Below, piece by piece: positions 993 through 22,387 of a stretch of DNA of 64,000 nt. The DNA is from Streptomyces venezuelae (lineage in GTDB: Bacteria; Actinomycetota; Actinomycetes; Streptomycetales; Streptomycetaceae), in assembly GCF_008642335.1 (NCBI RefSeq), contig NZ_CP029191.1, positions 6,572,001-6,636,000 of the forward strand, written 5' to 3'. How positions within the stretch are numbered: position 1 is the stretch's first letter; every line of letters starts with the position of its first letter. The notes beneath the pieces are model-generated. The model made no database searches. It saw nothing but the letters and a program-made list of their open reading frames with translations, and had not been told where the DNA came from. The position numbers and the translations under genes are program-made.

Positions 993-1057
993 GTCACTTC
1001 TCCTCTGATCCCTCGGGCTGCTTCTGTGGTCGGTCGTCTGCTCTGCGGGCGCGGGGC

Positions 1058-4000
1058 TCACGTCGTCCCGCGCGGCCGCGGCCGCAGCTTGGGCCTCGGC
1101 CTCGCCGCGGGCGCGCCCGGAGCGCCGAGGCTCCCGGCCAGCTCCGCCGGCGTCGGTCTGGTGAAGACCGTCCGCAGGTCGACCTCCGCGCCGAGGACGG
1201 TGCGGATGCGGCCGATGAGGCGCGTGGCGAGCAGGGAGTGCCCGCCGAGGTCGAAGAAGTTGTCGTCGACGCCGACCGGCTTCTCCAACCCCAGGACCTC
1301 GGAGAACAGCGCGACGAGCGCCTCTTCCCGGCTGTCGCGCGGGGGCCGGGAGGGGGCGGTGGCGGTGACGCTGGTGTGGTCGGGCGCCGGGAGCGCCTTG
1401 CGGTCCAGCTTCCCGTTGGGCGTCAACGGCAGGGCGTCGAGGGGGACGAGGGCGCCGGGCACCATGTGCTCGGGGAGGGCGCGGCGCAGCCGGTCCTGGA
1501 TGCCGGGCCGGTCGAGCGGTGTCCCGTCCTCCGCCACGACGTAGCCCACCAGACGGTGGTCGCCCGGCCGGTCCTCCCGGATCACGACGGCCGCGGCTGC
1601 GACCGAGGGACAGCCGGTCAACACGGCGGCGACCTCGCCGAGTTCGATGCGGAAGCCGCGCAGCTTCACCTGGTCGTCGGTGCGTCCGAGGTAGCGCAGC
1701 GTGCCGTCGTTGTTCCAGGCCACCAGGTCACCGGTGCGGTACATGCGTGTCCCGGCCGACCCGTAGGGATCGGCGACGAACCGCTCCGCCGTGAGTCCGG
1801 GCCGGTTCAGGTAGCCCCGCGCGAGTCCCGCCCCCGCGAGGTACAGCTCGCCCGCGACACCCGGCGCGACCGGGCGCAGCGCGGCGTCCAGGACGTACAC
1901 CCGCGTGTTCGCGATCGGGCGCCCGATCGGCGGCGCGACCTCGGAGTCACCGTCGGCGGCACACGGGTGGTACGTGACGTCGACCGTCGCCTCCGTCGGC
2001 CCGTACAGATTGTGGAGCCGCGCGGCGGGCAGTACGGCGCGGCAGCGCGACACCGTGTGGGCGTGCAGCGCCTCGCCGCTGCTGAACACGCGGTGCAGGG
2101 ACACGCAGCGCCCGGCGGTCGGCTCGTTGAGGAACGCGTCGAGCATGGACGGCACGAAGTGCAGCGTGGTGACACCCTCCCTCGCCACGAGTCCGGCCAG
2201 GTACGCGGCGTCGTTGTGCCCGCCGGGCTTCGCCAGGACCATGGACGCGCCCTGGAACAGCGGCCAGAAGAACTCCCACACGGACACGTCGAACCCGGCG
2301 GGGGTCTTCTGCAGCACCCGGTCGCCTGCCCCGAGCCCGTACTCCGACTGCATCCACGCCAGCCGGTTCACCACACCGGAGTGCGGCACGGCGACGCCCT
2401 TCGGGGTGCCGGTGGAGCCGGAGGTGTAGATGACGTAGGCGGGGTGGGCGGGATCGGGCGCGATGGCCGGGTCGCCCGGATCCGATGCCGCCGTACGGCT
2501 CCGGAGGGCCGGGTCGTCGAGCAGGACGGCCGGGATGCCCTCGGCCCACGGGCCGGTGGTGCCGGTGTCGGTCAGGACAAGGGTGGGGCGGGCGTCCTCG
2601 ACCATGTGACGGAGGCGTTCCGCCGGGTAGGACGTGTCGAGGGGCAGATACGCGGCGCCCGCCTTGAGGACGGCGAGCAGCGCGACGACCAGCTCCGGCG
2701 ATCGGGGCAGGGCGACGGCGACGATGTGCTCGGGGCCGACGCCGCGCCCGGTCAGGAGCTGCGCCAACGCGTTGGCGCGGGCGTTGAGTTCGCCGTACGT
2801 GAGACGGGTGCCGTCAGCGTTGTCGATGCCGTCGCTGATCAGGGCGACGGCGTCCGGTGTGGCGGCGGCCTGCGCCTGGAACAGCTCGGGCACGGTGGCC
2901 GCGGGCACGGAGGTGACCGTGTCGTTCCACTCCTCGAGGACCCGGTGCCGCTCGCCCTCGGACAGCACGTCGACGGAGCCGACACGCTGCTCCGGGTCGT
3001 CCGCGACGGCCCGCAGCACCCGCAGCAGCCGTTCGACCAGCGCGGTCACCGTGGCCTGCTCGAACAGGTCGGTGCGGTACGCCACCGATCCGGTGATCCC
3101 GTCCGGCGCGTCACCCCCGCCCTGGCGCTCGGCCAGGTGCACCGTCAGGTCCATCCGCGCGGCCCGGATGCGCGCCTCCTGCGGAGTCGCCTTCGCCCCG
3201 GCGAAGGTCAGCTCGCCCCGCGGGTTGCCGTTGAGGCCGAGCATGACCTGGAAGAGCGGGTGGTGGGCAAGTGACCGGGTGGGGTTCAGCGCCTCCACCA
3301 GGCCCTCGAAGGGCACGTCCTGGTGGGCGTAGGCATTGAGGTCGGTCTCGCGGACGCGGTCGAGGAGTTCGGTGAAGGTGGGGTCGCCGGACAGGTCGGT
3401 GCGCAGCACCAACGTATTCACGAAGAAGCCGACCAGGTCGTCCAGCTCCTCCTCGCCACGCCCCGCGACCGGCGTCCCGATGGGGATGTCCGTGCCCGCG
3501 CCGAGCCGGTGCAGGAGCACGGCCAGCGCGGCCTGCAGCACCATGAACACGGTCGTCTGCCGCGACCGCGCCAGCTCGACCAGGGCCTGGTGCAGTCCGG
3601 CGTCGATCCGTACCGGCACGACACCGCCCTCGAACCCGGCCTGCTCCGGATACGGGCGGTCCGTCGGCAGGGCGATGCGCTCCGGCAGCCCGGCCAGCGC
3701 GTCACGCCAGTGGCCGACCTGCGCGGCGAGCAGGCTCTCCGGGTCGCTCTCGGCGCCGAGGAGATCGCGCTGCCACAGGGTGTAGTCCGCGTACTGCACC
3801 GGCAGCGGTGTCCATGCCGGGGCACGGCCGGAACGACGAGCGGCGTAGGCCGCGCTCAGGTCGCGGGAGAGCGGCCCCACCGACCAGCCGTCCCCGGCGA
3901 TGTGGTGGATGACGAGGACGAGCACGTGCTCGTCTGCCGCGTCGTCGACGGTGAACAGCGCCGCGCGGAAGGGCAGTTCCGTCGCGAGGTCGAACGCGTG

Positions 4001-7000
4001 CCGCACCGCGCGGTCCACCGCACCGGACAGCTCCGTCTCGGGCACCGACGCGACGTCGAGCACCGGCCGCGCCTCGTCGACAGGGCGTACGTCCTGATAC
4101 GGCTCGCCGTCCGTCTCCGGGAACACGGTGCGCAGCGCCTCGTGCCGCGCCACCACATCGCCGAGCGCCGCCCGCAGCGCCGCCGCGTCCATCGCACCGG
4201 AGATCCGGAGCACCGCGGCGCCGTTGTACGTCGCGCTGGGCCCCTCGAACCGGTACAGGAACCACAACCGGCGCTGCGCGAACGACAGCGGCATCCGCTC
4301 GGGACGCGCCACCGGCACGATCGGAGGCCGCGCCTCCGGGCTGCCGCCGAGCTGCCGGGTCAGACCGGCCACCGTCGGGGAGTCGAAGAACGCCTTGATG
4401 CCGAGCTGCGCGCCCATGGCACGCCGGATGCGGCCGATCACGCGCGCGGCCAGCAGCGAGTGCCCGCCCAGGTCGAAGAAGCTGTCGTCGACGCCGACCC
4501 GCTCGGGATCGATGCCGAGCACCTCGGCGAACAGGGCGGTGAGGATCTCCTCGTGCGGGCTGCGCGGCGGCCTCTCCTGCCGCCCCTCGGCTCCGGTGCC
4601 GGTGTCGGTGCCGGTGCCTGCGGTGTAGTCGGGTTCGGGCAGCGCTCTGCGGTCCAGCTTCCCGTGCGCGGTCAGGGGCAGCGCGTCGAGGACGACGACG
4701 GCGGTCGGCACCATGTACTCCGGCAGCCGCGCCGCGAGCCGCTCCCGCACCTCGGCGGGGTCGACGTTCCCTTCGGCGTCCGGGACGACGTAGCCGACCA
4801 GGCGCCGGTCGCCCTCCTGCTCCTCGCGCACCACCGCGGCCGCCCGCGCGACATGCTCGCAGCGCGTCAACTCGGCCTCGACCTCCCCGAGTTCGATGCG
4901 GTAACCGCGGAGCTTGACCTGGTCGTCCGCGCGGCCCACGAAGACGAGGGTGCCGTCACCGTTCCACCGCGCCAGGTCGCCGGTGCGGTACATCCGCGAT
5001 CCCGCGGGCCCGTACGGGTCGGCGACGAAGCGCCCCGCGGTCAGACCGGGCCGCCGCAGATAGCCCCGGGCGAGCCCCGCGCCCGCCACGTACAGCTCAC
5101 CGGGCACGCCGGGCGGCACCGGACGCAGGCCCGCGTCCAGCACGTACACCTGGGTGTTGGCCATCGGACGGCCGATCGGCACCGGCCCGTCCGGCAGCTC
5201 GTCGCCGGGCTCGATCCTGAACTCCGTGCAGTTCACCGAGGCCTCGGTCGGCCCGTACACGTTCATGACGGTCACGTCCGGGTGCCCCTGGCGCCACGTG
5301 CGCAGCGCCTCGCCGAGCAGCGCCTCACCGCCGAGCAGCAGCTCCTCGCGCGGCGAGACCTCGTCGGGGAGGCCTTCGAGGAGCGCCAGGTGACTGGGCG
5401 TGGCCTTGAGGAAGTCGCAGCCGAGCGAACGTACCTCCGCGTCGTCCGCGAGGCCGTCCCGCAGCTCGGTGAGGACCACGCGGCCGCCCGAGACGAGCGG
5501 GGTGAGGAGCGCGGTGATCGACAGGTCGAAGGAGAGGGACGTGTGCAGCAGCGCCACGCCCTTGGCGCCCGTGTAGCGCCGGCTCGTGTCCCGCAGGTAG
5601 TCGGTCACGGCCGCGTGCGGCACGACGACGCCCTTGGGGGTGCCGGTGGAGCCGGAGGTGTAGATGACGTAGGCGGGGTGGGAGGGATCCGGCGCGGTGC
5701 CCGGATCGCTCGGGTCGAGCGCCGCGGTCCGGCTCTGTAGCGCCGGGTCGTCGAGGAGGACGACCGGGGTGTCGTCGCTCCAGAGGCCGGTGGTGCTCGT
5801 GGCGGCCAGGACGAGGGTGGGGCGGGCGTCCCGGACCATGTGGCGGATGCGGTCCGCCGGGTACGTCGTGTCGACGGGCAGATACGCGGCGCCCGCCTTG
5901 AGCACCCCGAGGAGCGCGGCGACCGTCCCCGGCGACCGGGGCAGGGCGAGGGCGACGATGTGCTCGGGCCCGACGCCGTGCTCGGTGAGGAGCCGCGCCA
6001 ACCGGTTGGCGCGGGCGTCGAGTTCGCCGTACGTGAGCTGCGTGCCGTCGCCCACGAGGGCGACCGCGTCCGGTGTGGCCGCGACCTGTGCCCGGAACAG
6101 CTCGACGAGCGTGCCGGGCGGGGCGGGCACGGCGGTGTCGTTCCACGTCCGCAGCATCTCGTGCCGCTCGGCGGCCGACAGCAGGTCCACCGACCCCACG
6201 TGCTGCTCGGGGTCGTCGAGGAGGCTCGCGAGGGCCTGGACGAACCAGCGGCCGACGGCTTCGACGCGCTCACGGGAGAACCGTCCCGCGTCGAACTGCA
6301 GGGCGCCGTCGATCCCCAGCGGCGCGCCGTCCGGGCCGAACCGCTCCCGCAATGTCAGCGTCAGGTCCCGGCGCGCGGCCCGCGTGTTCCAGGAGGATGC
6401 CGTGAGGCTCAGGCCGGGGATGTCGAGCTGCTGCGCCTCGTGGTTCTGCAGCGTGAGCATCACCTGGTACAGCGGCTGGTGGTCCGTGGTCCGGGTCGGG
6501 TTGAGGGCCTCCACCAGGCTTTCGAAGGGCACGTCCTGGTGGGCGTAGGCGTTGAGGTCGGCTTCGCGGACGCGGTCGAGGAGTTCGGTGAAGGTGGGGT
6601 CGCCGGACAGGTCGGTGCGCAGCACGAGGGTGTTGACGAAGTTGCCGATGAGGGTGTCCAGCTCCTGCTGGGCACGGCCCGCCGTCGGCGTGCCGATCGG
6701 GATGTCCGTCCCGGCGCCGAGCCGGTGCAGGAGCACGGCGAGAGCGGACTGCAGCACCATGAACACGGTGCTGCGCTGCCCCTTCGCGACCCGCACGAGG
6801 TCCTCGTGCAGCTCGGCCGGCAGGGACAGCTCCGCCACCTCGCCCCGCCGGTCGTCCGCCGCCCGCTCGGGCAGGTCGGTGGGGAGGTCGATGCGGTCGG
6901 GCAGCCCGGCCAGCGCGTCCTTCCAGTGGTCGAGCTGGCGGGCGAGGAGGCTGTCCGGGTCGCTCTCGTCGCCGAGGAGCTCGTGCTGCCACAGGGTGTA

Positions 7001-10000
7001 GTCGGCGTACTGGACCGGCAGCGGCTCCCACACCGGGCTTTCGCCCGCGCAGCGGGCGGCGTAGGCGGTCCCCAGGTCGCGGGCGAGGGGCCCCATGGAC
7101 CAGCCGTCGCCGGCGATGTGGTGGATGACCAGGACGAGCACGTGCTCGTCGGCGGCGTCCTCCATGCTGAACAGGGCGCCACGGAACGGAAGTTCGGCGG
7201 CGAGGTCGAAGGGGTGGCGGACGGCGCGGTCCACGGCTTCGGCCAGCTCGGCCTCGGTGACCGACGAGACGCTCACCTCGGGCCGCGCGTCGGTGGCCGG
7301 GCGGATGTCCTGGTACGGCTGCCCGTCGACGTCCGGGAAGACGGTGCGCAGCGCCTCGTGCCGCCCGACCACGTCGCCCAGCGCGGCGAGCAAAGCCTTG
7401 GCGTCCAGGGCACCGGAGAGCCGCAGCACGACCGGCACGTTGTACGTCGCGCTGGGCCCCTCAAGGCGGTACAGGAACCACAGCCTGCGCTGCGCGAACG
7501 ACAACGGCATGCGGTCGGGGCGCGCGGCGGGCACCAGCGCCGGGCGGTCGGCGGGGTTCGTCGTCGCTGCCACCGTACGGGCGAGGGCGGCGACGGTCGG
7601 CGCCGCGAAGAGGTCACGGACGACCAGGTCCACACCCATCACCGCGCGGACGCGGCCGGTGAGGCGCATGGCGAGGAGGGAGTGTCCGCCGAGGTCGAAG
7701 AAGTTGTCGTCGACGCCGATCCGGTCGAGGCCGAGGACTTCGGTGAAGAGTCCGGCCAGGATTTCCTCGCGTGCGTCGCGCGGGGCGCGGGTCGGCGTCG
7801 TCGTACCGCTGTAGTCGGGTGCGGGCAGCGCCTTGCGGTCCAGCTTCCCGTTCGGCATGAGGGGCAGTTCGCCGACGGTGACGACGGCGGCGGGGACCAT
7901 GTGGTCGGGCAGGCGTGCGGCGACGGCCTGCTTCACCTGGTCGACGTCCAGGGTCTGACCGGCGACGACGTAGCCGACGAGGCGGCGGTCGCCGGGGCGG
8001 TCCTCGCGGATGACGGCAGCGGCGGCCCGTACACCGGGAGCGGCGGCCAACGCGGCCTCGACCTCGCCGAGTTCGATGCGGAAGCCACGCAGCTTCACCT
8101 GGTCGTCGGCGCGCCCCAGGAAGTGCAGGGTGCCGTCCTGGTTCCACCGCGCCAGGTCGCCGGTGCGGTACATCCGTGACCCGGAGGGCCCGTAGGGGTC
8201 GGCGACGAAACGTTCCGCGGTCAGCCCCGGTCGGTTCAGGTAGCCGCGTGCGACACCGGCCCCGGCCACGTACAGCTCACCGGGTACGCCGGGTGGGACG
8301 GGGGACAGACCCTTGTCCAGGACGTATGTGCGTACGTTGCCGACGGGGCGTCCGATCGGCGGTACCCCGGCGCCGGACAGTGGGTCGCTCAGGGTGGCGC
8401 AGACGGTGGCTTCGGTGGGCCCGTAGGCGTTGATCATCCGTCGGCCGGTGGACCAGCGTTCGGCAATGTCGGGTGGGCAGGCCTCGCCGCCCACGACGAC
8501 CGTCAGGGTTTCCGGAACCTGTGTCAGGTCGAGGACGCTCAGGGCGGAGGGCGGCACCATGCAGTACGTGACGCCTGCGGTGTTCACGACGCGCGCGAGA
8601 GCGTCGCCGGGGGCGAGTTCGTGGGCATCGGCCACGACCAGGGCGGCGCCGGTCAGCAGGGCCAGGCTCCAGTCCCAGGTCGCGGCGTCGAAGCTGGGGG
8701 AGGCGAACTGGAGGACGCGGCTGCCGGGGCCCAGGCCGAGGTGGGGCGTGGAGGACGCGACGAGGTTCACCAGGCCTTCGTGCGTGACGACGACGCCCTT
8801 GGGGGTGCCGGTCGAGCCGGAGGTGTAGATGACATAGGCGGGGTGCGTTGGCCCAGGTGCGGAGAGGTCGGCGGGGATGCCTGCGGCCAACTCGGTTTGC
8901 ACGGCGCGGTCGTCGAGGCGTACGACTGCCGTGTCCTGTGTCCACAGTGCGGTGGTCGTCGCATCGGTCAGGACGAGTGACGGGCGGGCGTCTTCGACCA
9001 TGAAGCGGATCCGGTCCACCGGGTAGCCGGTGTCGATCGGCAGGTAGGCGGCTCCGGCCTTCCACACGGCGAGGACGGCGACGACGAGTTCCGGCGAGCG
9101 GGGCAGTGCGAGCGCGACCACCTGCTCGGGTCCGACGCCCCGGTCGACCAGCAGGCGTGCGAGCCGGTCCGCCCGTGCGTCCAGCTCGGCGTACGAGTAA
9201 GCAATGCTGCCGTCCGCCGTTACGATCGCCGGGGCGTCCGGGGCTTGGGCGACCCGCGCCGCGAACATGGCCGACGCCGTCTCCTCCGGTACCTCCACGA
9301 CCGGCCCGGAACCCCATCCGTCCAGAACACGCCCGCGCTCATCGTTCGACAGCAGCTGCACATCCCCCACCCGCTGCCCCGCGTCCTCGGCAACGGACCC
9401 CAGCAGCCGCATGAAGCGGTCGGCGATGGCGGCGACCGTCGGGCGGTCGAAGCGGTCGGCACGGAAGTCCAGCCGCAGCTTGAGCACGTCGCCGGGTGAG
9501 ACGGCGAGGCTCAGCGGGTAGTGGGTGGCGTCGCGGCCTTGGGTGGCGGTGGCCGTGAGGCGCGACGCGTGGTCACCGGCGGAGGTGTCCGGCGCGGCGG
9601 AGCCCTTGCGATTCGCGGGGAAGTTCTCCACGGCCATGACCGTGTCGAAGGCGTCGCCGATGCCGGCCGTCCGCTGAATGTCGGTCAGGGACAGGTGCTG
9701 GTGCGGAAGCAGCGCGGCCTGCTCGTCCTGTACGCGCACCGCCAGGTCGGCCCACGTGTCCAGGGAGTGCAGCCGTACGCGGACGGGCACCGTGTTGATG
9801 AACAGCCCAATCATGCTCTCGACGCCGGGGATCTCCGGTGAACGGCCCGACACCACCGCGCCGAAGACCACGTCGTCCTGACCGGACATCCGGCCGAGGA
9901 GCACACCCCACACGGACTGGACGAGCGTGCTCAGCGTGACGCCGAGACCGCGGGCCCGGGCCTGAAGCGCGGCGGTGGTGTCCTGCGGAAGATGCGCGAC

Positions 10001-10708
10001 GAAACTCTCGGGGAACACAGGTGCCGCGTCGTCAGCGGGGCCTGTGGTGACTGGAGTTGCAAGGTGAGTGGGTTCCGCTCCTGCCAGCGCACGCGTCCAC
10101 GCCTCACGCGCACCCTCGCGGTCCTGCTCGGAGAGCCAGACGAGGTAGTCGCGGTAGGGCGTAACGGGCGGGAGGGCACTGTCGTCGCCCTTGGAGTCGT
10201 ACAGGGCGAGCAGTTCGCGCACCATCAGGGACGAGGACCAGCCGTCGACGAGCACATGGTGCTGGGTGACGACCAGTCGGCTGCCGCCCTCCTGCGGCGA
10301 GTTGTCGCCGCCGGAGTGCCTGAGGAGCGCCATGCGCAGCAGCGGCGGGCGGTCGAGCTCGAACCGGCGGGCCCGCTCGGCGTCCGCGAACGCGCGCAGT
10401 TCGGCCTCGGTCCGCGCGGGCGAAAGGTGGGTGAGGTCGATCTCCTCCCACGGCAACTCCACGTCGCGCGCGACGACTTGGACGGGCTCGTCGAGGTCGT
10501 CCACCCAGAACGCCGCCCGCAGGTTGGCGTGCCGGTCGAGCAGGGCCTGACCGGCCGCGCGCATGGCTCCGGCGTCCAGGGCGCCCTCGAAGTCGAGGAT
10601 CAGCTGCACGACATAGGCGTCAGGCCCTTCGCGGTCGGCGAGGGCGTGGTAGACCAGCCCCTCCTGTAGCGGCGACAGCGGCCAGACGTCCTCGAGCTCA
10701 TGCGACAA
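1058..10708 (-). CDS. Three-module NRPS, C-A-T-C-A-T-C-A-T
   Basis: A 3216-residue peptide synthetase. Approximate domains: C1 9-450 (HHVLVDG at 150-156), A1 476-962, T1 (Ser1010), C2 1067-1510 (HHIAGDG), A2 1536-2026, T2 (Ser2084), C3 2139-2590 (HHIAGDG), A3 2616-3106, T3 (Ser3158). It ends about 55 residues later in a Pro/Arg tail with no thioesterase, reductase or condensation-like release domain. C1 opens with [12 protein letters not shown], a pattern common in C domains that accept a D-residue, which fits the epimerase ending the divergent NRPS. My hand-read ten-residue pockets are DAWMVGAVCK (hydrophobic/aromatic), DLTKLGVVNK (Asp-type) and DVWHFSLVDK (the EntF Ser code). I chose the TTG start at 10708, preceded by GGAGAG; a GTG at 10870 is in frame but adds 54 residues with no family match. 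Confidence 0.93.
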
Positions 10709-11274
10709 GGTTGATCCACTCTCCGTACCAGGCGCCGCAACGTGCCGAGGAAGCCCATTGCCAGTGCGCGCGACCACTTCACCGGAACCGGAATGCGGCC
10801 GTCCGCCCGCTGATTCCCGCGCCGGACCGATAGAGCGGGGGGAAACTGGGCGTCGGTGTGCCGCACACACCGGTCAAGAATGTCTTGGGCAAGCGCGCAC
10901 GGACAGGAAACGGCGCGTGTCGTCAAGGTGGCCCAAGAAGTTGGGAAAGAACGTCAGCTCGGCTTGTTCACCCGATTCGCCGGGCAATGACCCGCCGATG
11001 GGCCAGATGTGCCTGCCGCGCCCCACTGAGGAATGTCTGCACAGCCCCCTCCTCCGCTCATAGAGCTCCCCCCGTATCGGAGCCATGACTTAAAAGGACA
11101 GTACAACCGGCACTGCGAGCTGTACATGTGACCCCCGTCACAAGAGTGCGCGGGGCGGGTCGGAGCGCCGGTTGTGGTGCAATCAATGCGACCGGGACCT
11201 GTCGGCGTGATGTGTGATTATGTGGACCGCCCGGCGAGTGCCGGGGTGGACGCACGTCACTGCGGGGGACTTGG
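10709..11274. other. Divergent NRPS promoter region
   Basis: This 566-bp gap separates the two oppositely directed NRPS genes and should hold both promoters. No convincing gene is present; the short open frames crossing it have no family match. It contains a relatively A/T-rich tract with TTAAAAGG near 11090, and a CRP-like palindrome at 11127-11142 about 135 bp before the rightward ATG. I could not fix -35/-10 pairs with confidence. No regulator gene of its own lies beside it in the window. Confidence 0.6.
11127..11142. promoter_or_regulatory. CRP-like operator (TGTGA-N6-TCACA)
   Basis: TGTGACCCCCGTCACA is a perfect inverted repeat. It matches the enterobacterial CRP half-sites and also the looser GTG-N6-GNCAC form reported for Streptomyces Crp. 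It lies between two divergent NRPS genes. The sequence match is direct; binding is inferred. Confidence 0.55.
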
Positions 11275-14200
11275 ATGACTGGTCCGGTCGATGAGCAATG
11301 GCCCTTGACGGCAGCCCAGTCAGGGGTGTGGTTTTCTGCTTCCCTCGGGCCCGATTCCTCGGTCTACAACGTCGGTGAACGCGTAGAAATCCACGGACCG
11401 ATCGATCCGGAAATTCTCGGAAAGGCGTACGAGGCGGCTCTCGCGGAAGCCGACACTTTGCGGCTGGCCGTCGTGGAGGGACCGGAAGGACCGGTTCAGA
11501 TTTTCGACCGCGCCGACCCGGTGCCTGTTCGGCGACTCGATTTCGCCGGTCGGGAGGGGGCGGCAGCGGCGGCCGAAGCGTGGATCGCGTCGGACGTGCG
11601 GTCCGCGTTCGATCTCGCACAGGGACCGTTGTACGCGCCGGCGCTGCTCACCGTCGGACCGGACTTCCATATCCTCTACAGCCGTTACCACCACGTCGTC
11701 ATGGACGCCTGGAGTTCCGCGCTGATCACCCGGCGCACCGCCCGGCTCTACTCGGACGCGGTGGCGGGTCGGCCGGACAGCGGCACTCCGCTCTCCCCGT
11801 TCCGTGACCTGGTGGAACGTGAGGCGTCCTATCGGGGCTCGGAAGAGTACGAGGACGACCGGCGCTATTGGCTGAAACGGATGCGGGACGCACCCGACCC
11901 GGTCACGCTCTCCGGCCGCCCGTACCGCGCACCCCAGAACATTCTCCGCAGGCGGACCACGCTCGACGCGGGCGTTTCGGAGCGTTTGCGTTCCGCCGCC
12001 GCCGAATTGGGCGTCAGCCTTTCGGTATGGGCGGTGACAGCGACCTCCGCATACGTGAGCGCTGTCACCGGAGAAAGCGCCATAACCGTCGGACTTCCCC
12101 TTTCCGGCCGCCTCGACGAGATCGAGCGGAATACGCCGGGAATGACGGTCAACGTCGTTCCCCTGCACATCACGGTGCGCCCGGAGATTTCCCTGCAAAA
12201 GCTCGCGAGGAAAGTCTGGGCGCAGACGACGAGAGCGTCACGGCACAGCCGTTTCCGCATGGAAGATCTGCGCCGCGAACGCATGGGTGTGTCCGGGGAC
12301 AACCTTCCTTACGGCCCCGTGGTCAATGTCATGGCATTCGATTACGGAATCCTCTTCGACGGCCACCCCGCAAAGGCGAGCAGCCTCTCGCAGCGTCACA
12401 CGGACGACTTCTCCTTCGCCTTCTACGAAGGCGAGCACGAGGGCCCCATCGAGCTGTACTTCGACGCGAACGACCAGATGTACAGCCGGGCGGAAATGGA
12501 CGCCCATGTCGAGCGTTTCCTGCTTTTCCTGGAACGCATGGCGGAAACTCTCCCGGACCGGCCGATCGGCTCGATCAGCCTCCTCGGCGCCGGTGAGCGC
12601 GAGCGCGTCCTGGAGGTGTGGGGCAGCGGTCGCGCGGCGCAGGTGCCGGACGTCACGGCGTCGGCCGCGTTCGAGGCACAGGTCGCGCGGACACCGGACG
12701 CCGCGGCGCTGGTGTCGGCGGACGGCGGCACGGTGTACTCGTACGCCGAACTGAACGCCCATGCGAACCGTGTCGCGCGCCTTCTGGTGGAACAGGGCGT
12801 AGGCCCCGAGCAGTTGGTGGCTCTCGCGCTGCCGCGGTCCCCCGATCTGATCGTGGGCGCGCTGGCCGTGCTCAAGGCGGGCGCGGCCTACTTGCCGCTG
12901 GACGTGGAGTATCCGGCGGAGCGGCTTCGCTTCATGGTCGGAGACGCCCGCCCGAGCGTGCTGCTCGTGAACTCCGACGCGGTCCCTGCCGGGTTGGCCG
13001 ACGACGGCTCCGTGCTCTCCTTGAGCGATCCGGTGGTTGTGGAGCGGCTGGCGGCTATGCCGGTGGCTTCAGCCACAGATCTGACGGACGCGGACCGTCT
13101 GGCGCCGTTGGACGCGGATCATCCCGCGTATGTCGTCTATACGTCGGGTTCGACCGGTACCCCTAAGGGTGTGGTGGCGCAGCATGCGGGGTTGGTGAAC
13201 CTTGCGCTTGCGCAGAGCGCTCTGTGGGGGATCGGCGCGGGCAGCCGCGTGTTGCAGTTCGCGTCGCCGAGTTTCGATGCGGCCGCGTCGGAGGTGTTCA
13301 CGGCGTTGCTGACGGGGGGCGCCCTGGTGGTGGCGGACGCCGATCGGCTCATGCCCGGGGACTCGCTGTCGTCCACCTTCGTCGAGGCGGGCGTTACTCA
13401 TTGCACGCTTCCGCCGTCCGCGCTGGGCGTTCTGGATCCGGCGAAGGTGCCGGGTGCGTTGACGTTGGTCGTGGCGGGTGAGGCCTGCGATCCGGGTGCG
13501 GTGGGGCGTTGGTCTGTTGGGCGGCGGATGTTCAATGCGTACGGGCCGTCGGAGGCGACGGTGTGTGCGACGGTGAGTGATCCGTTGGCGGGGGCGGTGG
13601 TGCCGCCGATTGGCGGGCCGATCGCGAACGTACGGACGTATGTGCTGGATGCGGGGCTGGCGCCGGTGCCGCCCGGGGTGCCGGGTGAGTTGTACGTGGC
13701 CGGGGCGGGTGTCGCGCGTGGGTATCTGAACCGGCCGGGGCTGACCGGGGAGCGGTTCGTCGCCGACCCCTTCGGGCCCGCCGGATCACGGATGTATCGC
13801 ACGGGCGACCTGGCGGCCTGGAACGACGACGGTTCCCTGCGTTTTCTGGGGCGTACGGATGACCAGGTGAAACTGCGCGGTTTCCGTATCGAACTGGGGG
13901 AGGTCGAGGCGGCGTTGGACGCCGCCCCCGGTGTCGCGAGTGCCGCGGCGGTCATCCGCGAGGACCGCCCCGGCGACCGCCGTCTCGTCGGCTATGTCGT
14001 CCCCGACGGGGCTCATGGCGCTGACGGCGTCGTTGGCGTCGACGTCGATCAGGTGAAGAAGGCGGTTGCCGCGCGGCTGCCCGACTTCATGGTCCCCGCG
14101 GCCGTCGTCGCCATCGACGCACTGCCCCTTACACCGAGCGGAAAGGTGGACCGCAAGGCGCTGCCCGCCCCCGACTACATCGGTACGGGGACGTCGTCGT

Positions 14201-17200
14201 CGCGGGCGCCCCGCGACGCACGCGAGGAAATCCTGGCCGCACTCTTCGCGGACGTCCTCGGCGTCGGCCGAGTCGGAGTGGAGGACAGCTTCTTCGAGCT
14301 CGGCGGGCATTCGCTGCTTGCCATGCGCCTCCTCGGTCGCATACGCGCCGTCATGGGCGTGGACCTGGCGATCCGTGACCTGTTCGCGGCGCCGACGATC
14401 TCCGCCCTGGCCCGCACGGTCGACGCGACGACGCACCCGGTGGACCGACCGGCCCTGGCCCCGGCCACGCGCCCCGACCGCATGCCGTTGTCGTTCGCGC
14501 AGCGCAGGCTGTGGTTCCTGTACCGCCTTGAGGGGCCCAGCGCGACGTACAACGTGCCCATGGTGCTGCGCCTGTCCGGCGCCCTGGACGTCGATGCTCT
14601 GCGCGCCGCGCTGAACGACGTGGTGGCGCGGCACGAGGCGCTGCGCACCGTCTTCCCGGAGGTGGACGGGCAGCCGTACCAGGACATCCGGCCGGCCGCC
14701 GACGCGCGGACGCCGATGGATGTAGGGGCGGTCACCGAGGCGGAGCTGTCCGGCGCCGTGGAACGGGCGGTCCGCCGGCCCATCGACCTCGCGACCGAAC
14801 TGCCGCTGCACGTCTCGCTGTTCACCGTCACGGACGCCGTCGACGAGCACGTGCTCGTTCTGGTTCTCCACCACATCGCCGGAGACGGCTGGTCGATGAG
14901 TCCCCTGGCCGGCGACCTCGGCGCGGCCTACGCCGCGCGGTGTGCGGGACGGGTGCCGACGTGGGCACCTCTGCCGGTCCAGTACGCCGACTACACCCTG
15001 TGGCAGCGCCAAGTGCTCGGGGACGAGAGCGACCCGTCGAGTGTGTTGACCGCTCAACTGGGCTACTGGAAGCAGGCGTTGGCCGGGCTGCCGGAACGCC
15101 TGGAGCTCCCCACCGACCACCCGTACCCCGAACAGGCCGGGTACGAGGGCGCGACCGTGCCCGTGTCGGTGGACGCCGATGTCCACCGGGCACTGGTCGA
15201 ACTCGCGCGGTCACGGCAGACGACCGTGTTCATGGTGCTGCAGTCCGCGCTGGCCGTGCTGCTGCACCGGCTCGGCGCGGGCACGGACATCCCCCTGGGG
15301 ACGCCGGTGGCGGGCCGCGGCGAGGAAGAGCTCGACGACCTGGTCGGCTTCTTCGTGAACACGCTCGTGCTGCGCACCGACCTGTCCGGCGACCCCACCT
15401 TCACCGAACTCCTCGACCGGGTCTGCGCGACGAACCTGGGTGCCTACGCTCACCAGGACGTGCCCTTCGAGGGCCTGGTGGAGGCCCTGAACCCGAACCG
15501 GTCCCTCGCCCACCACCCGCTCTTCCAGGTCATGCTGGCCTTCAACAACGTGCCGCGCACGACGCCGGACCTCGTCGGGGTCGAGGTGACGCCCCGGACC
15601 GTGCGCGTCCAGGCCGCCCGGATGGACCTGTCCGTCAGCCTCGCCGAACAGCACGATGCCGACGGAGTCGCCGACGGGATCAGCGGTGTGATCTCGTACC
15701 GCACCGACCTGTTCGAGCACGGCACGGTCACCGCGATGGCCGAGCGGCTCGTCCGCGTGCTCGCGAGCGTCGCCATCGACGCGGAGCGGCGTGTGGGCTC
15801 GATCGAGGTGCTGTCGGGCGAGGAGCGGCACCGGCTCCTGGAGGGGCGGAACGACACGGCGGTGCCGGTGCCCCGCGCCACCGTGCCGGAACTCGTCGAG
15901 GCCCGGGCGCAGGCCGCGCCGGACGCGGTCGCCTTGATCGCCGGCGGAGCCGGTAGTGCTGACAGCGGCAGCCTCACGTACGGCGAACTCAACACCCCCG
16001 CCAACCGGTTGGCGCACCATCTGATCGGGCAGGGCGTCGGCCCCGAGCACATCGTCGCCCTCGCCCTGCCCCGCTCGCCGGAACTGATCACCGCTCTCGT
16101 CGCGGTGCTGAAGACCGGCGCCGCCTACCTGCCCATCGACACGGCCTACCCGCCCGACCGCGTCCGCTTCATGCTGGAGGACTCCCGTCCCGCCCTCGTC
16201 CTGACCCGCACCACCACCAGCGCGCTGTGGCCCGAGGACACCCGTACGGTCTTCCTCGACGACCCCGCCCTCCAGGATCGGTTGTCCATCCGGCCGGGCA
16301 CCGACCCGACGGACGCGGACCGTCTGGCCCCACTGGATCCCGATCATCCCGCGTATGTCGTCTATACGTCGGGTTCGACCGGTACCCCTAAGGGTGTGGT
16401 GGCGCAGCATGCGGGGTTGGTGAACCTTGCGCTTGCGCAGAGCGCTCTGTGGGGCATCGGCGCGGGCAGTCGTGTGTTGCAGTTCGCGTCGCCGAGTTTC
16501 GATGCGGCCGCGTCGGAGGTGTTCACGGCGCTGCTGACGGGGGGCGCGCTGGTGGTGTCGGAGGCCGATCGGCTCATGCCTGGGGACGCGCTGTCGTCCA
16601 CCTTCGTCGGGGCGGGCGTCACCCACTGCACGCTCCCTCCCTCCGCGCTGGGCGTCCTGGATCCGGCGAAGGTGCCGACCGCGATGACGTTGGTCGTGGC
16701 AGGCGAGGCCTGTGACCCGGGCACCGTGGGGCGTTGGTCCGCGGGGCGGCGGATGTTCAATGCGTACGGGCCGTCGGAGGCGACGGTGTGTGCGACGGTG
16801 AGTGATCCGTTGGCGGGGGCCGGGGTGCCGCCCATTGGCGGGCCGATCGCGAACGTACGGACGTATGTGCTGGATGCGGGGCTGGCGCCGGTGCCGCCCG
16901 GGGTGCCGGGTGAGTTGTACGTGGCCGGGGCCGGTGTCGCACGCGGTTACCTGAACCGACCGGTGCTGACCGCGGAACGGTTCGTCGCCGACCCCTACGG
17001 GCCCGCCGGATCACGGATGTACCGCACGGGCGACCTGGCGGCCTGGAACGACGACGGCACCCTTCGCTACCTAGGACGCACCGACGACCAGGTCAAACTG
17101 CGCGGCTTCCGCATCGAGCTCGGCGAGGTCGAGGCGGCACTGTCCGCCGGCCCCGGCGTCACCGCCGCCGCTGCCGTCATCCGCGAGGACCGCCCCGGCG

Positions 17201-19209
17201 ACCGCCGTCTCGTCGGCTACGTCATCGCCGAAGGCGCTGATGGCGCTGACGGCGCCGTGGGCATCGACATCGACCAGGTCAAGAAGACCGTCGCCGTGCG
17301 GCTGCCCGACCACATGGTCCCCGCAGCCGTCGTCGCCATCGACGCACTGCCCCTTACACCGAACGGAAAGGTGGACCGCAAGGCGCTGCCCGCTCCCGAC
17401 TACGCGCCCACCACCCGTACCCGCGCCCCGGGCACCCCGCAGGAGAAGGCCCTGACCGACCTCTTCGCGGACGTCCTGGGGCTCGACCCCGACCGGGTCG
17501 GCGTCGACGACAGCTTCTTCGCGCTCGGCGGCGACAGCATCAGCTCCATCGTCCTGGTCAGCCGCGCCCGCGAACACGGGCTCGACCTGTCGCCGCGTGA
17601 CGTCTTCCGGCACCAGACGGCGCGCCAACTCGCGCATACGACGCGCAGGTTGGCGGGCGCAGGACACGCTCCGGAGGGCGACGACGGAACCGGCACCGTA
17701 CCGTTGACGCCCATCATGCGGTGGCTCGTCGAGCCGGAGCACACGTACGAGGAGTTCTTCCAGGCGCGGCTCGTCCAGGTCCCGGCAGATGTCGGACATG
17801 AGCAGCTCGTCGAGGTGCTTCAGGCCCTCGTCGACCGTCACGACCTGCTGCGGGCACGTCTGACGCGCGAGGGAGACATCGGCGACGGCGACTTGGTCCT
17901 GTCCGTCCCCCCGGCACGGAGCCCCCACGCGCTCACCGCCGACTCGGCCCTTACGCGGGTGGACTGCGCCGACGTGACGGACAGCGAGCGCGAGCGGCTG
18001 CTCGCCGAGCACGCCACGCTCGCGCGGGGCCGTCTGGCGCCGCGCGATGGGGTCATGCTCCAGGCCGTCTGGTTCGACCACGGACCTGAGGTGCCGGGCC
18101 GTCTGCTCCTGACGGTCCACCACCTGGTCGTCGACGGGGTCTCCTGGCGCATCCTGCTGCCCGACCTGGCCGCCGCGGGCGCGGCGGTGCTCGACGGTCG
18201 TACACCGGACCTCGCCCCCGTTCCCACCTCCTTCAAGCGCTGGGCGGAGCAGCTCCACGTGCTGGCGGCCGAACCGCGCACCACGGATGCCCTGGGGCAC
18301 TGGACGGAGAGTCTGACCGGGTCCGAACCCGTCCTCGGCCGTCGTCCGCCGAGCCCGGACGAGGACACCGCGGCACGGCTCGACACGTTGCGCGTGACGG
18401 TTCCGGCGGACTTGTCGGAGGCGCTGCTCACCCGGGTGCCCGACACGCTGCACGCGGGTGTCGAGGACGTGCTGGTGACGGCGTTCGTGCTGGCGGTGAA
18501 CCAGTGGCGGACCGCGTACGGCGTGCCGGGCGGCGCGTCCAGCGCGACGTCTCTCCTGGTCGACGTCGAGGGGCACGGGCGGGAGGACCTGTTCCCGGGC
18601 GCCGACACGTCACGGACGGTGGGCTGGTTCACGGCGGTCGCGCCGGTGCGGCTCGATCCCGGCAGGGTGTCCTGGGGCGAGGTCCGGCGCGGCGGCCCGG
18701 CCGCCGGGCGGGTCCTGCAGCGCGTCAAGGAGCAGCTGAGTGCCGCGTCGGAGCAGCGCATCGCGTACGGCCTGCTCCGCCACCTCAACCCGGAGACCGC
18801 GCCGGGCCTCGCCGCGCTTCCCGGCGCGCAGGTGGCGTTCAACTACTTCGGGCGGACCGGCCGGAACCGGTCGAACCCCGAGGGCGACTGGCTGCAGGTG
18901 GACGGGTTTACGCCCACGGGCGGCCTCGACCCCCGGATGCGTCTGACGCACGCGCTGATGGTCAACGCGGCCGCGACGGAGGGTCCGTCGGGGCCGGAAC
19001 TGTCCGCGACCTGGTCGTGGCCGCGCGACGTGCTGACGCGCGGGGACGTGGCACAGCTCGGCGAGGGCTGGGTCACCCACCTCAAGGCGCTGGCCGCCCA
19101 CGCGGACGGGCCCGACGCCGTCGGCCGGACGCCGTCGGACCTGTCCCTCGTCAACCTCAGCCAGAGCCAGATCAGCCGACTTGAGAAGAAGTGGCGCGGC
19201 AGGCGGTGA
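11275..19209 (+). CDS. Two-module NRPS with starter C and epimerase, C-A-T-C-A-T-E
   Basis: A 2644-residue synthetase starting at an ATG. Domains: C1 8-445, A1 470-965, T1 (Ser1013), C2 1070-1515 (HHIAGDG 1199-1205), A2 1545-2040, T2 (Ser2088 in LGGDSIS, the form usual before an epimerase), E 2140-2620 (HHLVVDG 2282-2288). C1 resembles the EntF condensation domain (opening AAQSGVW, later [11 protein letters not shown]), a type that takes an acyl group from a separate carrier protein. Its active-site motif reads HHVVMDA rather than HHxxxDG. Both A domains give the pocket DASTVAAVCK, which I recall as a tyrosine/beta-hydroxytyrosine code. The product should be acyl-aromatic-D-aromatic passed to the divergent NRPS. 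The two A-domain cores are almost identical in DNA. Confidence 0.94.
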
Positions 19210-19274
19210 CGCCACGCGCGTCGACGCCACGCCACCGCCCCGTAAGAACATGTGAGTTGGAGTGTGATGTTGCA

Positions 19275-19529
19275 GTGACTGCCGTCTACGAGGACGCAGC
19301 CGTCCGGTCCCGCGTGCTCGACTTCCTGTCGCGGTACGTGGACGACCCCGCCGAGCTGGAGGGCATCCAGCTGATCACCGGCGGGGTGCTCAGCTCGCTG
19401 GCGACCGTCGCGCTCGTCAGCCACCTGGAGAAGGAGTTCGGCGTCGACATCGACGACGACGACCTGGAGATCGAGAACTTCGACACGCTGGACAGCATCG
19501 TCGGGTTCGTGCAGGGGAAACAGGCATGA
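19275..19529 (+). CDS. Free-standing acyl carrier protein
   Basis: An 84-residue, acidic carrier protein of the type found with FkbH-like enzymes. The likely phosphopantetheine site is Ser41 in VLSSLATVAL, followed by HLEKEFGVDI, the usual helix after the DSL-type site. I chose the GTG start at 19275, about 12 bases after GGAG; a longer frame begins inside the NRPS and adds only Pro/Arg-rich residues. Its stop overlaps the next ATG (ATGA), so translation is coupled to the acyl-CoA-dehydrogenase-like gene. It is expected to carry a glyceryl group loaded by the FkbH-like protein and to hand the finished acyl group to the starter C domain of the preceding NRPS. Confidence 0.88.
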   Translation: MTAVYEDAAVRSRVLDFLSRYVDDPAELEGIQLITGGVLSSLATVALVSHLEKEFGVDIDDDDLEIENFDTLDSIVGFVQGKQA

Positions 19530-20719
19530 GCGGACCGCCGACGGCCACGGGCGAGCTGGGGCGCCTGCTGCTGCCGCTGGCCGACGAGATCGAGGCGGCG
19601 AAGACGGTCCCCGCGCACGTCTTCGAGGCGGTCGCCGCGTCCGGCGCGCTGGCCGCGATGGTGCCCGAGGCGTACGGGGGACGGCCGCTCGGCCATCTCG
19701 AGTACGGCGAGCTGAACCGGGCGGTGGCCCGTACGTCGGCGTCGCTGCAGAGCCTGCTGACCGTGCACGGAATGGTGTGCGCGAGCCTGAGCCGCTGGGG
19801 ATCGCAGGGCCTGCGGCAGCGTCTGCTGCCGCGCCTCGCTTCCGGGGAGCTGGTCGGGGCGTTCGGCCTCACCGAGGACGGCGCGGGCAGCGACGCGCAG
19901 GCGGTCGGGACGACGGCGACACCGGAGGAGCCCTCGACGACGGCGCCGAAGGGCGCCGACACCACCGAAACCGTCTGGCGGCTGGACGGCACGAAGCGCT
20001 GGCTGTCCTTCGGGCAGCTCGCCCACTGCTTCCTGGTCTTCGCCAAGCACGGCGACCGCAGCGTGGCCTTCCTCGTCCAGCGGGACGACCCGGGCGTCAC
20101 GGTCGTCCCGAGCCGGCCCACCAGCGGCTTCCGCAGCGCCATGCTCGCCGACCTCCACCTGGAGGACTGCCGCGTGCCCGCCGACCGCATGGTGGGCAGG
20201 CCCGGCTTCGGCGTGTCCCAAGTGGCGGGCGGCGCCCTGTCGTTGGGGCGGCTCTGCGTGGCGTACGGTTCACTCGGCCTCGCCGAGGCGTGCTGCGACG
20301 CGATCCTCGCCCACACCAGCAGCCGCAAGCAGTTCGGCGGGCGCCTCATCGACCTGCAGCTCGTCCGCGGTCTGATCAGCGACGCCGTGCTGGACACCGA
20401 GGCGGCGCTGCTCCTGTGCGAGCAGGCGGCCCGGGCCATGGACACCCAGGACGACTGGCTGATCCAGCACGTCCTCACCGCCAAGCTGGCCGCGTCCCGC
20501 GCCGCGGACCGCGCGTCGGCCGCCGCGGCCCAACTGCACGGCGCCGCGGGCATGGTGGAGGGCGGGCCCGTCGACCGCTGGGTGCGGGACGCGCGGGTGA
20601 TGCAGATCATCGAGGGCAGCACGCAGCTGCTCCAGGACCTTCTGGCCGACGAGAGCCTGCAACGCTTCCGGGTACGCAGGCGCCACCCGCAATATCCGTT
20701 CGAAGCAGGCAGGAGCTGA
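19526..20719 (+). CDS. FkbI-type acyl-ACP dehydrogenase
   Basis: A 397-residue flavoprotein of the acyl-CoA dehydrogenase superfamily. Family features seen are GLTEDGAGSDA around 114-124 (substrate/FAD region), SSRKQFGGRL near 265-274, and IIEGSTQLLQ with Glu363 at the catalytic-base position. Homologues in methoxymalonyl-, hydroxymalonyl- and aminomalonyl-ACP routes (FkbI, ZmaE/ZmaI) oxidise carrier-bound C3 units. Here the usual partner, an FkbK-type 3-hydroxyacyl dehydrogenase, is missing, as is an O-methyltransferase. The enzyme may therefore act directly on glyceryl-ACP, giving a dihydroxyacryloyl or semialdehyde thioester. That step is inference. It overlaps the ACP gene by four bases. 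Confidence 0.88.
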   Translation: MSGPPTATGELGRLLLPLADEIEAAKTVPAHVFEAVAASGALAAMVPEAYGGRPLGHLEYGELNRAVARTSASLQSLLTVHGMVCASLSRWGSQGLRQRLLPRLASGELVGAFGLTEDGAGSDAQAVGTTATPEEPSTTAPKGADTTETVWRLDGTKRWLSFGQLAHCFLVFAKHGDRSVAFLVQRDDPGVTVVPSRPTSGFRSAMLADLHLEDCRVPADRMVGRPGFGVSQVAGGALSLGRLCVAYGSLGLAEACCDAILAHTSSRKQFGGRLIDLQLVRGLISDAVLDTEAALLLCEQAARAMDTQDDWLIQHVLTAKLAASRAADRASAAAAQLHGAAGMVEGGPVDRWVRDARVMQIIEGSTQLLQDLLADESLQRFRVRRRHPQYPFEAGRS

Positions 20720-20720
20720 C

Positions 20721-21803
20721 GTGCCTAGTGAGCTGGTCAAGTGTGTCGTCTGGGACCTGGATGACACCGTGTGGGAGGGCATACTCTCCGAAGGCCCCGG
20801 GGTGAAGCTGCGCCCCGGCATCCGTGAGCTGATCGAGACGCTCGACGAGCGCGGCATCCTGCAGTCGATCGCCAGCAAGAACGACGAGAAGGCCGCCCTC
20901 GACGAGCTCGAACGGCTCGGCATCCGCGAATACTTCCTCGTCCCGCACGTCTCGTGGCAGCCGAAGTCGGCGCTGATCCAGAGCATCGCCGAGCGGCTCA
21001 ACATCGGCATCGACACGCTGATGTTCGTGGACGACTCCGCCTTCGAGCGCGCCGAGGTCGAGTTCGTGCACCCGCAGGTGCGGTGCGTGGACGCCGCCGA
21101 GACAGCGGACCTGCTGGACCGCCCCGAGCTGACGAGGCCGGTGACCGAGGACGGGCGCGCCCGCCGCATGCTCTACCTGCAGGCGGAGGAACGCAAGGCC
21201 TACGAGACGTCGTTCGCGGGGCCGCAGGTCGAGTTCCTCAGGTCGCTCGACATGCGGCTCACGATCGCGGTGGCCACACCCGAGGACCTGGAACGCGCCG
21301 CCGAACTCACGGAACGCACCCACCAGTTGAACACGACCGGCCTGACGTTCTCCAAGGCGGAGCTGCGCGAACTGATGGAGCGCCCCGACCAGACCCTCCT
21401 GGTCGCCCGCCTCACCGACCGCTTCGGAACGTACGGCACGATCGGTCTCACGCTGGTGGGCAGGACGCCCGACGAGTGGCGGATTCGCCTGTTCCTGATG
21501 TCCTGCCGCGTGATGGGCCGCAACGTCGGAGGCGCGATCCTGCGCTACCTGGCACAGTCGGCCGAGGCCGAACAGGTGCGCCTGACGGCGGACTTCAGGC
21601 CCACGGACGTCAACAAGGCGATGTACACGGTGTACCGCCTGGCAGGCTTCAAAAAGACCGCAGTCGAGGACCCGGGGGCGGAGGGCTCAGGGCACGACGC
21701 CTCCGTGAAGGTACTGAGAATGGCCACCGGCCTGCCACACACCTACCCCGACTACCTCACCCTGTCGCTGCCCGAGGACCACGCGTTGAGGAGTGCGCCG
21801 TGA
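20721..21803 (+). CDS. FkbH-like glyceryl-ACP synthase
   Basis: A 360-residue FkbH-family protein, the usual length for FkbH. The N-terminal half has the HAD nucleophile motif DLDDT (Asp12, Asp14), and the C-terminal half looks like the GNAT-type domain of this family. FkbH proteins take 1,3-bisphosphoglycerate, dephosphorylate it and load D-glycerate on a carrier protein. GTG start at 20721 with AGGAG six bases before. It follows the dehydrogenase gene by one base and overlaps the ARD-like gene by four (GTGA). This places 3-carbon glyceryl chemistry inside an NRPS cluster that has no polyketide synthase in the window. Confidence 0.92.
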
Positions 21804-22387
21804 CCCTGCTGATCACGTGGCCGGAGTCCGGCCCCGAAACCGTCGTACGCCGCACTGTCGACCCCGGTGAGATCGCCGCCGCGCTGGCCCCCGCGGGCGT
21901 GCGCTACGAACAGTGGCCGCTCCGCGACGGCCTCCCCGAGGACCCGGACCCCGAGATGGTGCTGAGCGCGTACCGGAGCGAGGTGGACGAGCTCGCAGCC
22001 ACCGAAGCCTTCAAGACCATCGACGTCGTGGGACTGCGCCCTCGGCGGGAACTGGGGTGGCGCCTGACCGCCAAGGCCGAGCGGAAGAAGTTCCTCAGCG
22101 AGCACACGCACGACGACGACGATGAGGTGCGGTTCTTCGTCGCGGGCGCCGGCGCGTTCTACCTGCACGTCGGACATGAGGTGCACGCCGTGCTGTGCGA
22201 GGCGGGGGACCTGCTGGGGGTGCCGCGGGGGACCAGGCACTGGTTCGACATGGGGGCCACACCGTCGTACACCGTCATTCGCTTCTTCCACGACGAGGAC
22301 GGCTGGATCGGCAACTTCACCGGCAGCGACATCGCCCTGAGGTTCCCCGACTTCGACGGGCTCATGGCGGCGCGCAAGCCCGGCTGA
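21800..22387 (+). CDS. Acireductone dioxygenase (ARD/MtnD)-like cupin
   Basis: A 195-residue cupin closely resembling acireductone dioxygenase. Visible signatures are EHTH (His102, His104), Glu109 in DEVRFFVAG, and GTRHWFDMG with His147; together these make the 3-His/1-Glu metal site. The spacing here is HxH-x4-E, one longer than the HxH-x3-E I recall for the Klebsiella enzyme. ARD normally cleaves the methionine-salvage acireductone with O2, giving formate and a keto acid (Fe form) or CO as well (Ni form). No other methionine-salvage gene is nearby, and the start codon overlaps the fkbH-like stop, so it most likely acts on the ACP-bound unit. GTG start at 21800 with GAGGAG upstream. It is the last gene of this operon. 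Confidence 0.88.

Follow-up and report, generated by a model that had tools for sequence, protein, structure and literature searches.

Genes of the locus

The window analyzed here, a stretch of 64,000 nucleotides from the genome of Streptomyces venezuelae, carries four consecutive forward-strand genes for an acyl carrier protein (ACP), an FkbI/ZmaE-type FAD acyl-ACP dehydrogenase (ACAD), an FkbH glyceryl transferase/phosphatase, and a paralogue of acireductone dioxygenase (ARD). The first gene (19275..19529, GTG start) encodes a stand-alone ACP of 84 aa, identified by alignment and by the Pfam PP-binding profile (25.9 bits against a cut-off of 20.8); an alternative in-frame TTG at 19257 would lengthen the protein to 90 aa. 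Its Ser41, in the motif GVLSSLATV, is the expected phosphopantetheine site. The ACAD gene (19526..20719, ATG start, 397 aa) overlaps the end of the ACP gene by 4 bases (ATGA), and its product matches the N-terminal, middle, and C-terminal Pfam domains of its family, the last with 116 bits. One base past its end lies the GTG of the FkbH gene (20721..21803, 360 aa), whose product has the motifs DLDDT and SCRVMGR and matches TIGR01686 with 262.7 bits (cut-off, 146.65). The ARD gene (21800..22387, GTG start, 195 aa) overlaps the FkbH stop in a GTGA. Its product was recognized by PF03079 (83.4 bits; cut-off, 27) and by similarity to Klebsiella ARD (1zrr; E = 8.7e-44), while the NCBIfam profiles assigned it to no family. 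Upstream, the stop codon of a nonribosomal peptide synthetase (NRPS) gene at 19209 precedes the ACP gene by 65 bases.

The catalytic residues examined in these enzymes are intact, and the enzymes look active. Every one of the 54 aligned ACAD rows has the catalytic Glu (IIEGST in the window), and both Asp residues of the FkbH DxD motif, together with its Thr and Cys, are kept in 53 of 53. In the ARD, H102, H104, E109, H147, and R111 are invariant in all 15 rows chosen for alignment, a set that leaves aside the divergent ARDs of loci L186 to L188 described below. We take the three His and the Glu to be the metal ligands, with positions aligned to 1zrr. Between the second His and the Glu, the cluster ARD is one residue longer than Klebsiella ARD, as is the MtnD encoded elsewhere in the same genome.

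The core of the hydroxymalonyl/methoxymalonyl-ACP cassette, consisting of ACP, FkbI, and FkbH, is complete in the window. The preliminary description of this DNA had read the four genes as coupled or nearly so, with the cassette members FkbK and FkbG missing. Open reading frames, coordinates, and families agree with the first statement. For the second, we used one FkbK and two methyltransferases from related cassettes, FkbG-like by position, as tblastn queries; none had a match at E = 1e-2 in the 111 kb formed by the window and the 47 kb to its left.

Related clusters and the origin of the dioxygenase

Seven of 392 genomes of the genus had a match to FkbH with an E value no higher than 1e-100: the window genome, Streptomyces atriruber (G081; locus L043), Streptomyces sp. 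F001 (G196; locus L044), a further genome designated G666 (80% identity), and three others (54%). In those three the order is FkbK-ACP-ACAD-FkbH, and no ARD was found in the 20 kb read. Besides the window genome, three Streptomyces (G081, G196, and G666) thus have the cluster, each with the ARD and with no FkbK found in the stretches examined. G666 resembles the window throughout, with NRPS genes at 70 to 82%, a TauD gene, and ACP, ACAD, FkbH, and ARD at 78 to 82%. In the part of G196 that was read, two NRPS genes are shared with the window, the first of them spread over two open frames, and the G081 contig starts inside the first NRPS, of which only the end is visible. Farther afield, FkbH matches occurred in 17 of 396 genomes in a phylum-wide search, none above 50% besides the window's own, and 115 plasmid records held only relatives below 60% identity.

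The ARD gene adjoins FkbH in all four genomes. In S. atriruber its ATG lies 10 bases past the FkbH stop, and in G196 and G666 it is on the opposite strand, facing FkbH; the FkbH-ARD coupling is not conserved across the four genomes. An assembly error behind the inversion in G196 is unlikely because G666 has the same convergent order. Just before the inverted ARD of G196 (L044:10880-11160), the C terminus of FkbH diverges after about residue 320 in a frameshift-like manner.

A position at the cluster edge invites the explanation that the ARD is a chance neighbor without a function in the pathway. Of the genes common to the four genomes at this edge, it comes last in every one, and the 3 kb beyond it showed no blastn similarity among them at E = 1e-10. 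The window genome and G081 may even share a flank, since the next gene of the window (CorA-like) has a 90% counterpart 23 kb further on in G081. However, the ARD has been retained in four genomes and two orientations, and in three pairwise comparisons the ratio of nonsynonymous to synonymous divergence (dN/dS), obtained by a simple counting method, was approximately 0.28, 0.12, and 0.13, with dN 0.079 against dS 0.28. These values indicate that the cluster ARDs are under purifying selection, and we regard mere adjacency as a very improbable account.

Judged by its sequence, the cluster ARD is a paralogue of a methionine salvage enzyme. The window genome (8.05 Mb) encodes two ARDs; the other, 71% identical to the cluster ARD, is the genome's own MtnD, encoded at 1.417 Mb by the first gene of an mtnD-C-B operon that MtnA faces. 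MtnC of this operon passes its curated profile; MtnB was assigned to the class II aldolase family and MtnA to the IF-2B family, and the names of these two we presume from family and gene position. In a tree, the cluster ARDs form one clade (support 100) on a stem of 0.32 inside the Streptomyces MtnD group (support 94), and their sister relation to the ARDs of loci L008 and L009 has a support of 82. Sixteen positions separate the three cluster ARDs compared from 27 Streptomyces ARDs of the MtnD type. Among these, position 119 is Ala in the cluster and Ile or Val in the 27, and position 159 is Val in the cluster and Ala in 42 of 43 others. A119 and V159 together occur in all four cluster ARDs, including that of G666, which does not have all sixteen. 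Both positions may play a part in the substrate pocket, which the equivalent of 159 may line.

This descent would also suit a spare salvage enzyme that supports the supply of S-adenosylmethionine or methionine during production. Across 199 genomes of the genus, ARD genes were found in 43 genomes at 45 places, of which 37 were beside MtnC, 3 beside the cluster ACAD and FkbH, 1 beside an MtnB-like gene only, and 4 beside none of these. An ARD in another peptide neighborhood has been read as methionine supply (PMC2922099). Against such a role, MtnA, MtnB, and MtnC are absent beside the cluster ARD, and G196 (an assembly 99% complete in 170 contigs) has the cluster ARD as its sole ARD. There the MtnC profile found nothing and the MtnC protein found one 31% match (E = 7.4e-4), and the close MtnA seen in the window genome, G081, and G666 (86 to 100%) was not found, although an assembly gap could hide such genes. 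No close MtnB was found in G196 either; the best match, at 32%, is of a kind also present in the other three genomes searched. A second MtnA-like protein (48 to 50%) occurs in all four genomes, and G196 retains its copy (48%), which speaks for salvage. The MtnW/MtnX by-pass of MtnC (PMC8102628), which lay outside our searches, also requires MtnB.

Because MtnC, a close MtnB, and a close MtnA were not found in G196, methionine salvage is an unlikely role for the ARD there, and for the cluster ARDs in general we give it little credence. The company expected of an MtnD, with MtnA, MtnB, and MtnC beside it or in its genome, is not what accompanies the cluster ARD, although the window genome does hold these genes elsewhere. 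The view that the ARD belongs to the biosynthetic cluster and not to salvage, already taken in the preliminary description, is upheld by its presence in four genomes and two orientations, by the gaps in G196, and by the separate salvage operon. We are confident that the ARD is a dedicated member of the pathway.

The history of the cassette was examined in a wider set of loci, the best 80 of 146 FkbH relatives from a scan of named genomes. An ACAD lies within 4 kb of FkbH in 60 of the 80, and an FkbK relative lies within 10 kb in 50 of these 60. The ten without FkbK comprise L043, L044, L046 (whose distant ACAD, at 28%, is on the other strand), and seven loci near contig ends, which have at most 7.1 kb of sequence on at least one side and do not bear on the presence of FkbK. 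An ARD was found near FkbH in three of the 80, namely, L043, L044, and L102 from Kibdelosporangium persicum, and L102 is the exception among the 50 FkbK-bearing loci, the other 49 of which have no ARD in the stretch examined. In a joint ACAD and FkbH tree of 53 rows, built by a quick method with a midpoint root, the window, L043, and L044 form one clade (100), which joins seven FkbK-bearing cassettes in a larger clade (SH-aLRT 100). With that grouping, and a root that is not fixed, a loss of FkbK in the lineage of the window cluster would be simpler than seven gains, and such a loss most simply explains the distribution.

L102 resembles the window in that an ARD (53%), with Ala119, lies beside an FkbH cassette near PKS/NRPS-like genes. 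At L102:7686-14977 (also covered by L189), FkbK-ACP-ACAD-FkbH is followed by genes for an MtnA-like protein (36%), an MtnB-like protein (62%), the ARD, and an IlvD/Edd dehydratase, and MtnB, MtnC, ARD, and MtnA-like (35%) genes occur together on another K. persicum contig. Unlike the window, this locus has retained FkbK and has MtnA-like and MtnB-like genes. We therefore dropped L102 as a second instance of the window system, given these three genes and the separate salvage set. Its ARD probably acts on a ribose-derived acireductone, and the locus may use a copy of the salvage route to make an unusual amino acid.

Other ARD settings came to light as well. Loci L186, L187, and L188 (genomes G086, G066, and G056; approximately 9.6 to 10.3 kb) have divergent ARDs that are 41 to 48% identical to that of the window. 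Named by eye, the neighbors are an MtnB-like or aldolase-like gene and a methyltransferase in all three, a cysteine-synthase-like gene in L187 and L188, and an EamA-like transporter in L186 and L187. In the alignment, the ARDs of L187 and L188 have a residue other than Glu at the position of the usual Glu ligand. These loci perhaps represent another recruited ARD. At L032 and L033 (G111 and G003; seen wider in L039 and L040), no Mtn gene was found near the ARDs (63 to 64% identity) to a distance of about 7 kb, and their neighbors appear by eye to be peptidase-like and oxidoreductase-like.

A proposed starter-unit pathway

We propose that ACP, ACAD, FkbH, and ARD form a pathway dedicated to making the starter unit of the adjacent NRPS. 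From its family, FkbH would load glycerate from 1,3-bisphosphoglycerate onto the ACP to give glyceryl-ACP. The FkbI-type flavoenzyme, working without FkbK, would then take two electrons across C2-C3 and yield 2,3-dihydroxyacryloyl-S-ACP, which would be the enol of tartronate-semialdehyde-ACP, the would-be product of FkbK. This enediol thioester is an acireductone by structure. The ARD, as a duplicated and modified MtnD, could use O2 to split C2-C3 of the enediol into formate and oxalyl-S-ACP, and a starter condensation (C) domain would transfer the shortened acyl group onto the first amino acid. The loss of FkbK and the gain of an ARD fit such a direct dehydrogenation of glyceryl-ACP. That the ARD acts on a glyceryl-derived unit seems to us reasonably probable. 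Oxalyl-ACP, formed together with formate, is the leading candidate for the product of the ARD step, although we advance it tentatively. Equally guarded is the larger proposal that a duplicated salvage dioxygenase has turned into a carrier-protein enzyme that converts the enediol-ACP to oxalyl-ACP and formate.

Several observations weigh against this pathway. ARDs are not known to accept carrier-bound thioesters, and no product or activity of the cluster is known. The ACAD carries no mark of a new substrate: the ACADs of three aligned clusters have only 3 changes at columns at least 85% conserved among relatives, and the nearest solved structures are short-chain acyl-CoA dehydrogenases (E = 8.4e-50) and not FkbI (1r2j; E = 9.5e-45). 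To these can be added the inverted ARD genes of G196 and G666. ARD genes also occur in some peptide-ligation neighborhoods with a methionyl-tRNA-synthetase paralogue (PMC2922099), much as one lies beside the window NRPS; the ligation machinery there is of another kind, the ARD is read as methionine supply, and FkbH goes unmentioned in that paper. Finally, the window genome contains nine FkbK matches, the best at 39% and all outside the cluster, so an alcohol dehydrogenase could act in trans.

The last point underlies a different explanation, in which a 3-hydroxyacyl dehydrogenase with a housekeeping role does the work of FkbK in trans, the cluster makes hydroxymalonyl-ACP in the ordinary way, and the ARD clears stray enediol or reductone that would block the carrier. 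The unchanged catalytic residue of the FkbI-type enzyme is in keeping with it, as are the nine matches. Yet the FkbK-bearing loci manage, with the exception of L102 and its MtnA and MtnB, without an ARD in the stretch examined, and Pfam found no acyltransferase domain for hydroxymalonyl-ACP in the three NRPSs or in the P450-A-T protein of the cluster. We consider this explanation unlikely. The ARD step itself would be the same for direct and for trans dehydrogenation because the enol tautomer of the trans product is the same compound. A further variant concerns the metal, with which the products of ARD vary (PMC8315008). Ni-type chemistry would yield formate and CO and destroy the acyl unit, serving as an off-switch or a CO source, but the operon would then have made its acyl unit in vain, and we find this variant hardly credible.

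The presumed receiver of the acyl starter is the NRPS encoded at 11275..19209 on the forward strand (2,644 aa), which Pfam and motif reading resolve as starter-like C-A-T-C-A-T-E. Its first C domain (11275-12630) looks like a starter-type domain, with best matches to 7c1k, 6n8e ObiF1, 5ja1 EntF, and CDA C1, all of which we take to be starter C domains. Both of its A domains carry the code DASTVAAVCK, presumably Tyr-like by the specificity codes of such domains. On the reverse strand, 1058..10870 encodes a second NRPS (3,270 aa; three C-A-T modules by Pfam), whose A-domain codes correspond to an unknown aromatic, Asp, and Ser, and 51..1061 encodes a TauD/SyrP-like dioxygenase (PF02668; 86% counterpart in G666), a probable Asp beta-hydroxylase. 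In all, the genes left of the 2,644-aa NRPS encode two further NRPSs, the SyrP-like TauD, an MbtH, a P450-A-T fusion, an alpha/beta hydrolase, and a Methyltransf_2 protein. The fusion joins a P450 to an A-T didomain (1,079 aa; reverse strand) and lies approximately 15.4 to 12.2 kb left of the window (L042:12053-15292), with the alpha/beta hydrolase, O-methyltransferase, and MbtH genes close by; this group looks as if it provides the same peptide with a tailored amino acid. The Methyltransf_2 O-methyltransferase, of a family other than FkbG, is located some 16 kb to the left of the window. As a rough guide, the specificity codes predict acyl-Tyr-D-Tyr-X-(OH)Asp-Ser-D-Tyr-X-Gly with TE release. 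Elsewhere in the window genome, a second FkbH-like stretch (36%; G000:C1:5444284-5445249) lies in an open frame of 2,825 aa, and the strain may hold another glycerate-using assembly line.

These neighbors bear on the question of substrate. The ARD could belong to the pathway and act on some other enediol or ketol, derived for example from hydroxylated Asp or from the P450-A-T amino acid, in which case the starter would be glyceryl, hydroxypyruvoyl, or hydroxymalonyl. The cluster does contain both the TauD hydroxylase and the P450-A-T fusion, and the ARD is a separate gene found in two orientations. Still, the ARD adjoins FkbH in each of the four genomes, and it is in these four that FkbK is missing. 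We judge a substrate of this other kind to be less than likely, though worth serious attention.

If the oxalyl-ACP pathway is correct, it would connect glycolysis with the capping of a nonribosomal peptide by a two-carbon oxalyl (oxamate) group or, after decarboxylation, by a formyl group, and would be a new entry to oxalyl-capped peptides. It would also entail oxygenative C-C cleavage of a carrier-bound acyl unit by a family best known from methionine salvage. Even with another product, an ARD in place of FkbK and FkbG is a clear case in which a starter pathway has acquired an enzyme of primary metabolism as its neighbor. G196, with its ARD and apparently no salvage pathway, would offer a clean background for tests.

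Comparison with known systems

A pathway uniting ARD with FkbH, an NRPS cluster, glyceryl-ACP, or oxalyl was not found in the open-access literature, most subscription papers being outside the search. The available parts of PMC6302742, PMC2922099, and PMC8102628 do not state that an ARD acts on a carrier-bound acyl unit. The precedent for the chemistry is the Fe-ARD reaction of methionine salvage, in which the acireductone is cleaved into an oxo acid and formate (PMC8315008). The MtnD of the window genome and the cluster ARD have all metal ligands in common; the cluster ARD differs in having no MtnA, MtnB, or MtnC neighbors, in occurring in G196 despite the absence of a detected MtnC or close MtnB, and in its A119 and V159.

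Glycerate is likewise used by the NRPSs of vioprolide and cystomanamide (PMC8949500). In those systems, an FkbH domain of the NRPS itself loads the glyceryl moiety, whereas the window FkbH is a separate enzyme and is accompanied by a dehydrogenase and a dioxygenase. An enediol has been proposed as an intermediate in the step toward hydroxymalonyl-ACP that involves ZmaE, an FAD enzyme homologous to the window ACAD (PMC4207774). The methoxymalonyl/hydroxymalonyl-ACP cassettes (BafAI-AV, FkbG-K, and Zma) have ACP, FAD dehydrogenase, and FkbH in common with the window. In bafilomycin, the order is 3-hydroxyacyl dehydrogenase, ACP, ACAD, FkbH, and methyltransferase (PMC3679948), in which the ACP-ACAD-FkbH part is the same as in the window. 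In contrast to these cassettes, the window cluster lacks a 3-hydroxyacyl dehydrogenase ahead of the ACP and, behind FkbH, has the ARD where a methyltransferase would stand; its NRPS has a starter-like C domain. The window cluster thus looks like a bafilomycin-type cassette without its first and last members and with an ARD beside FkbH.

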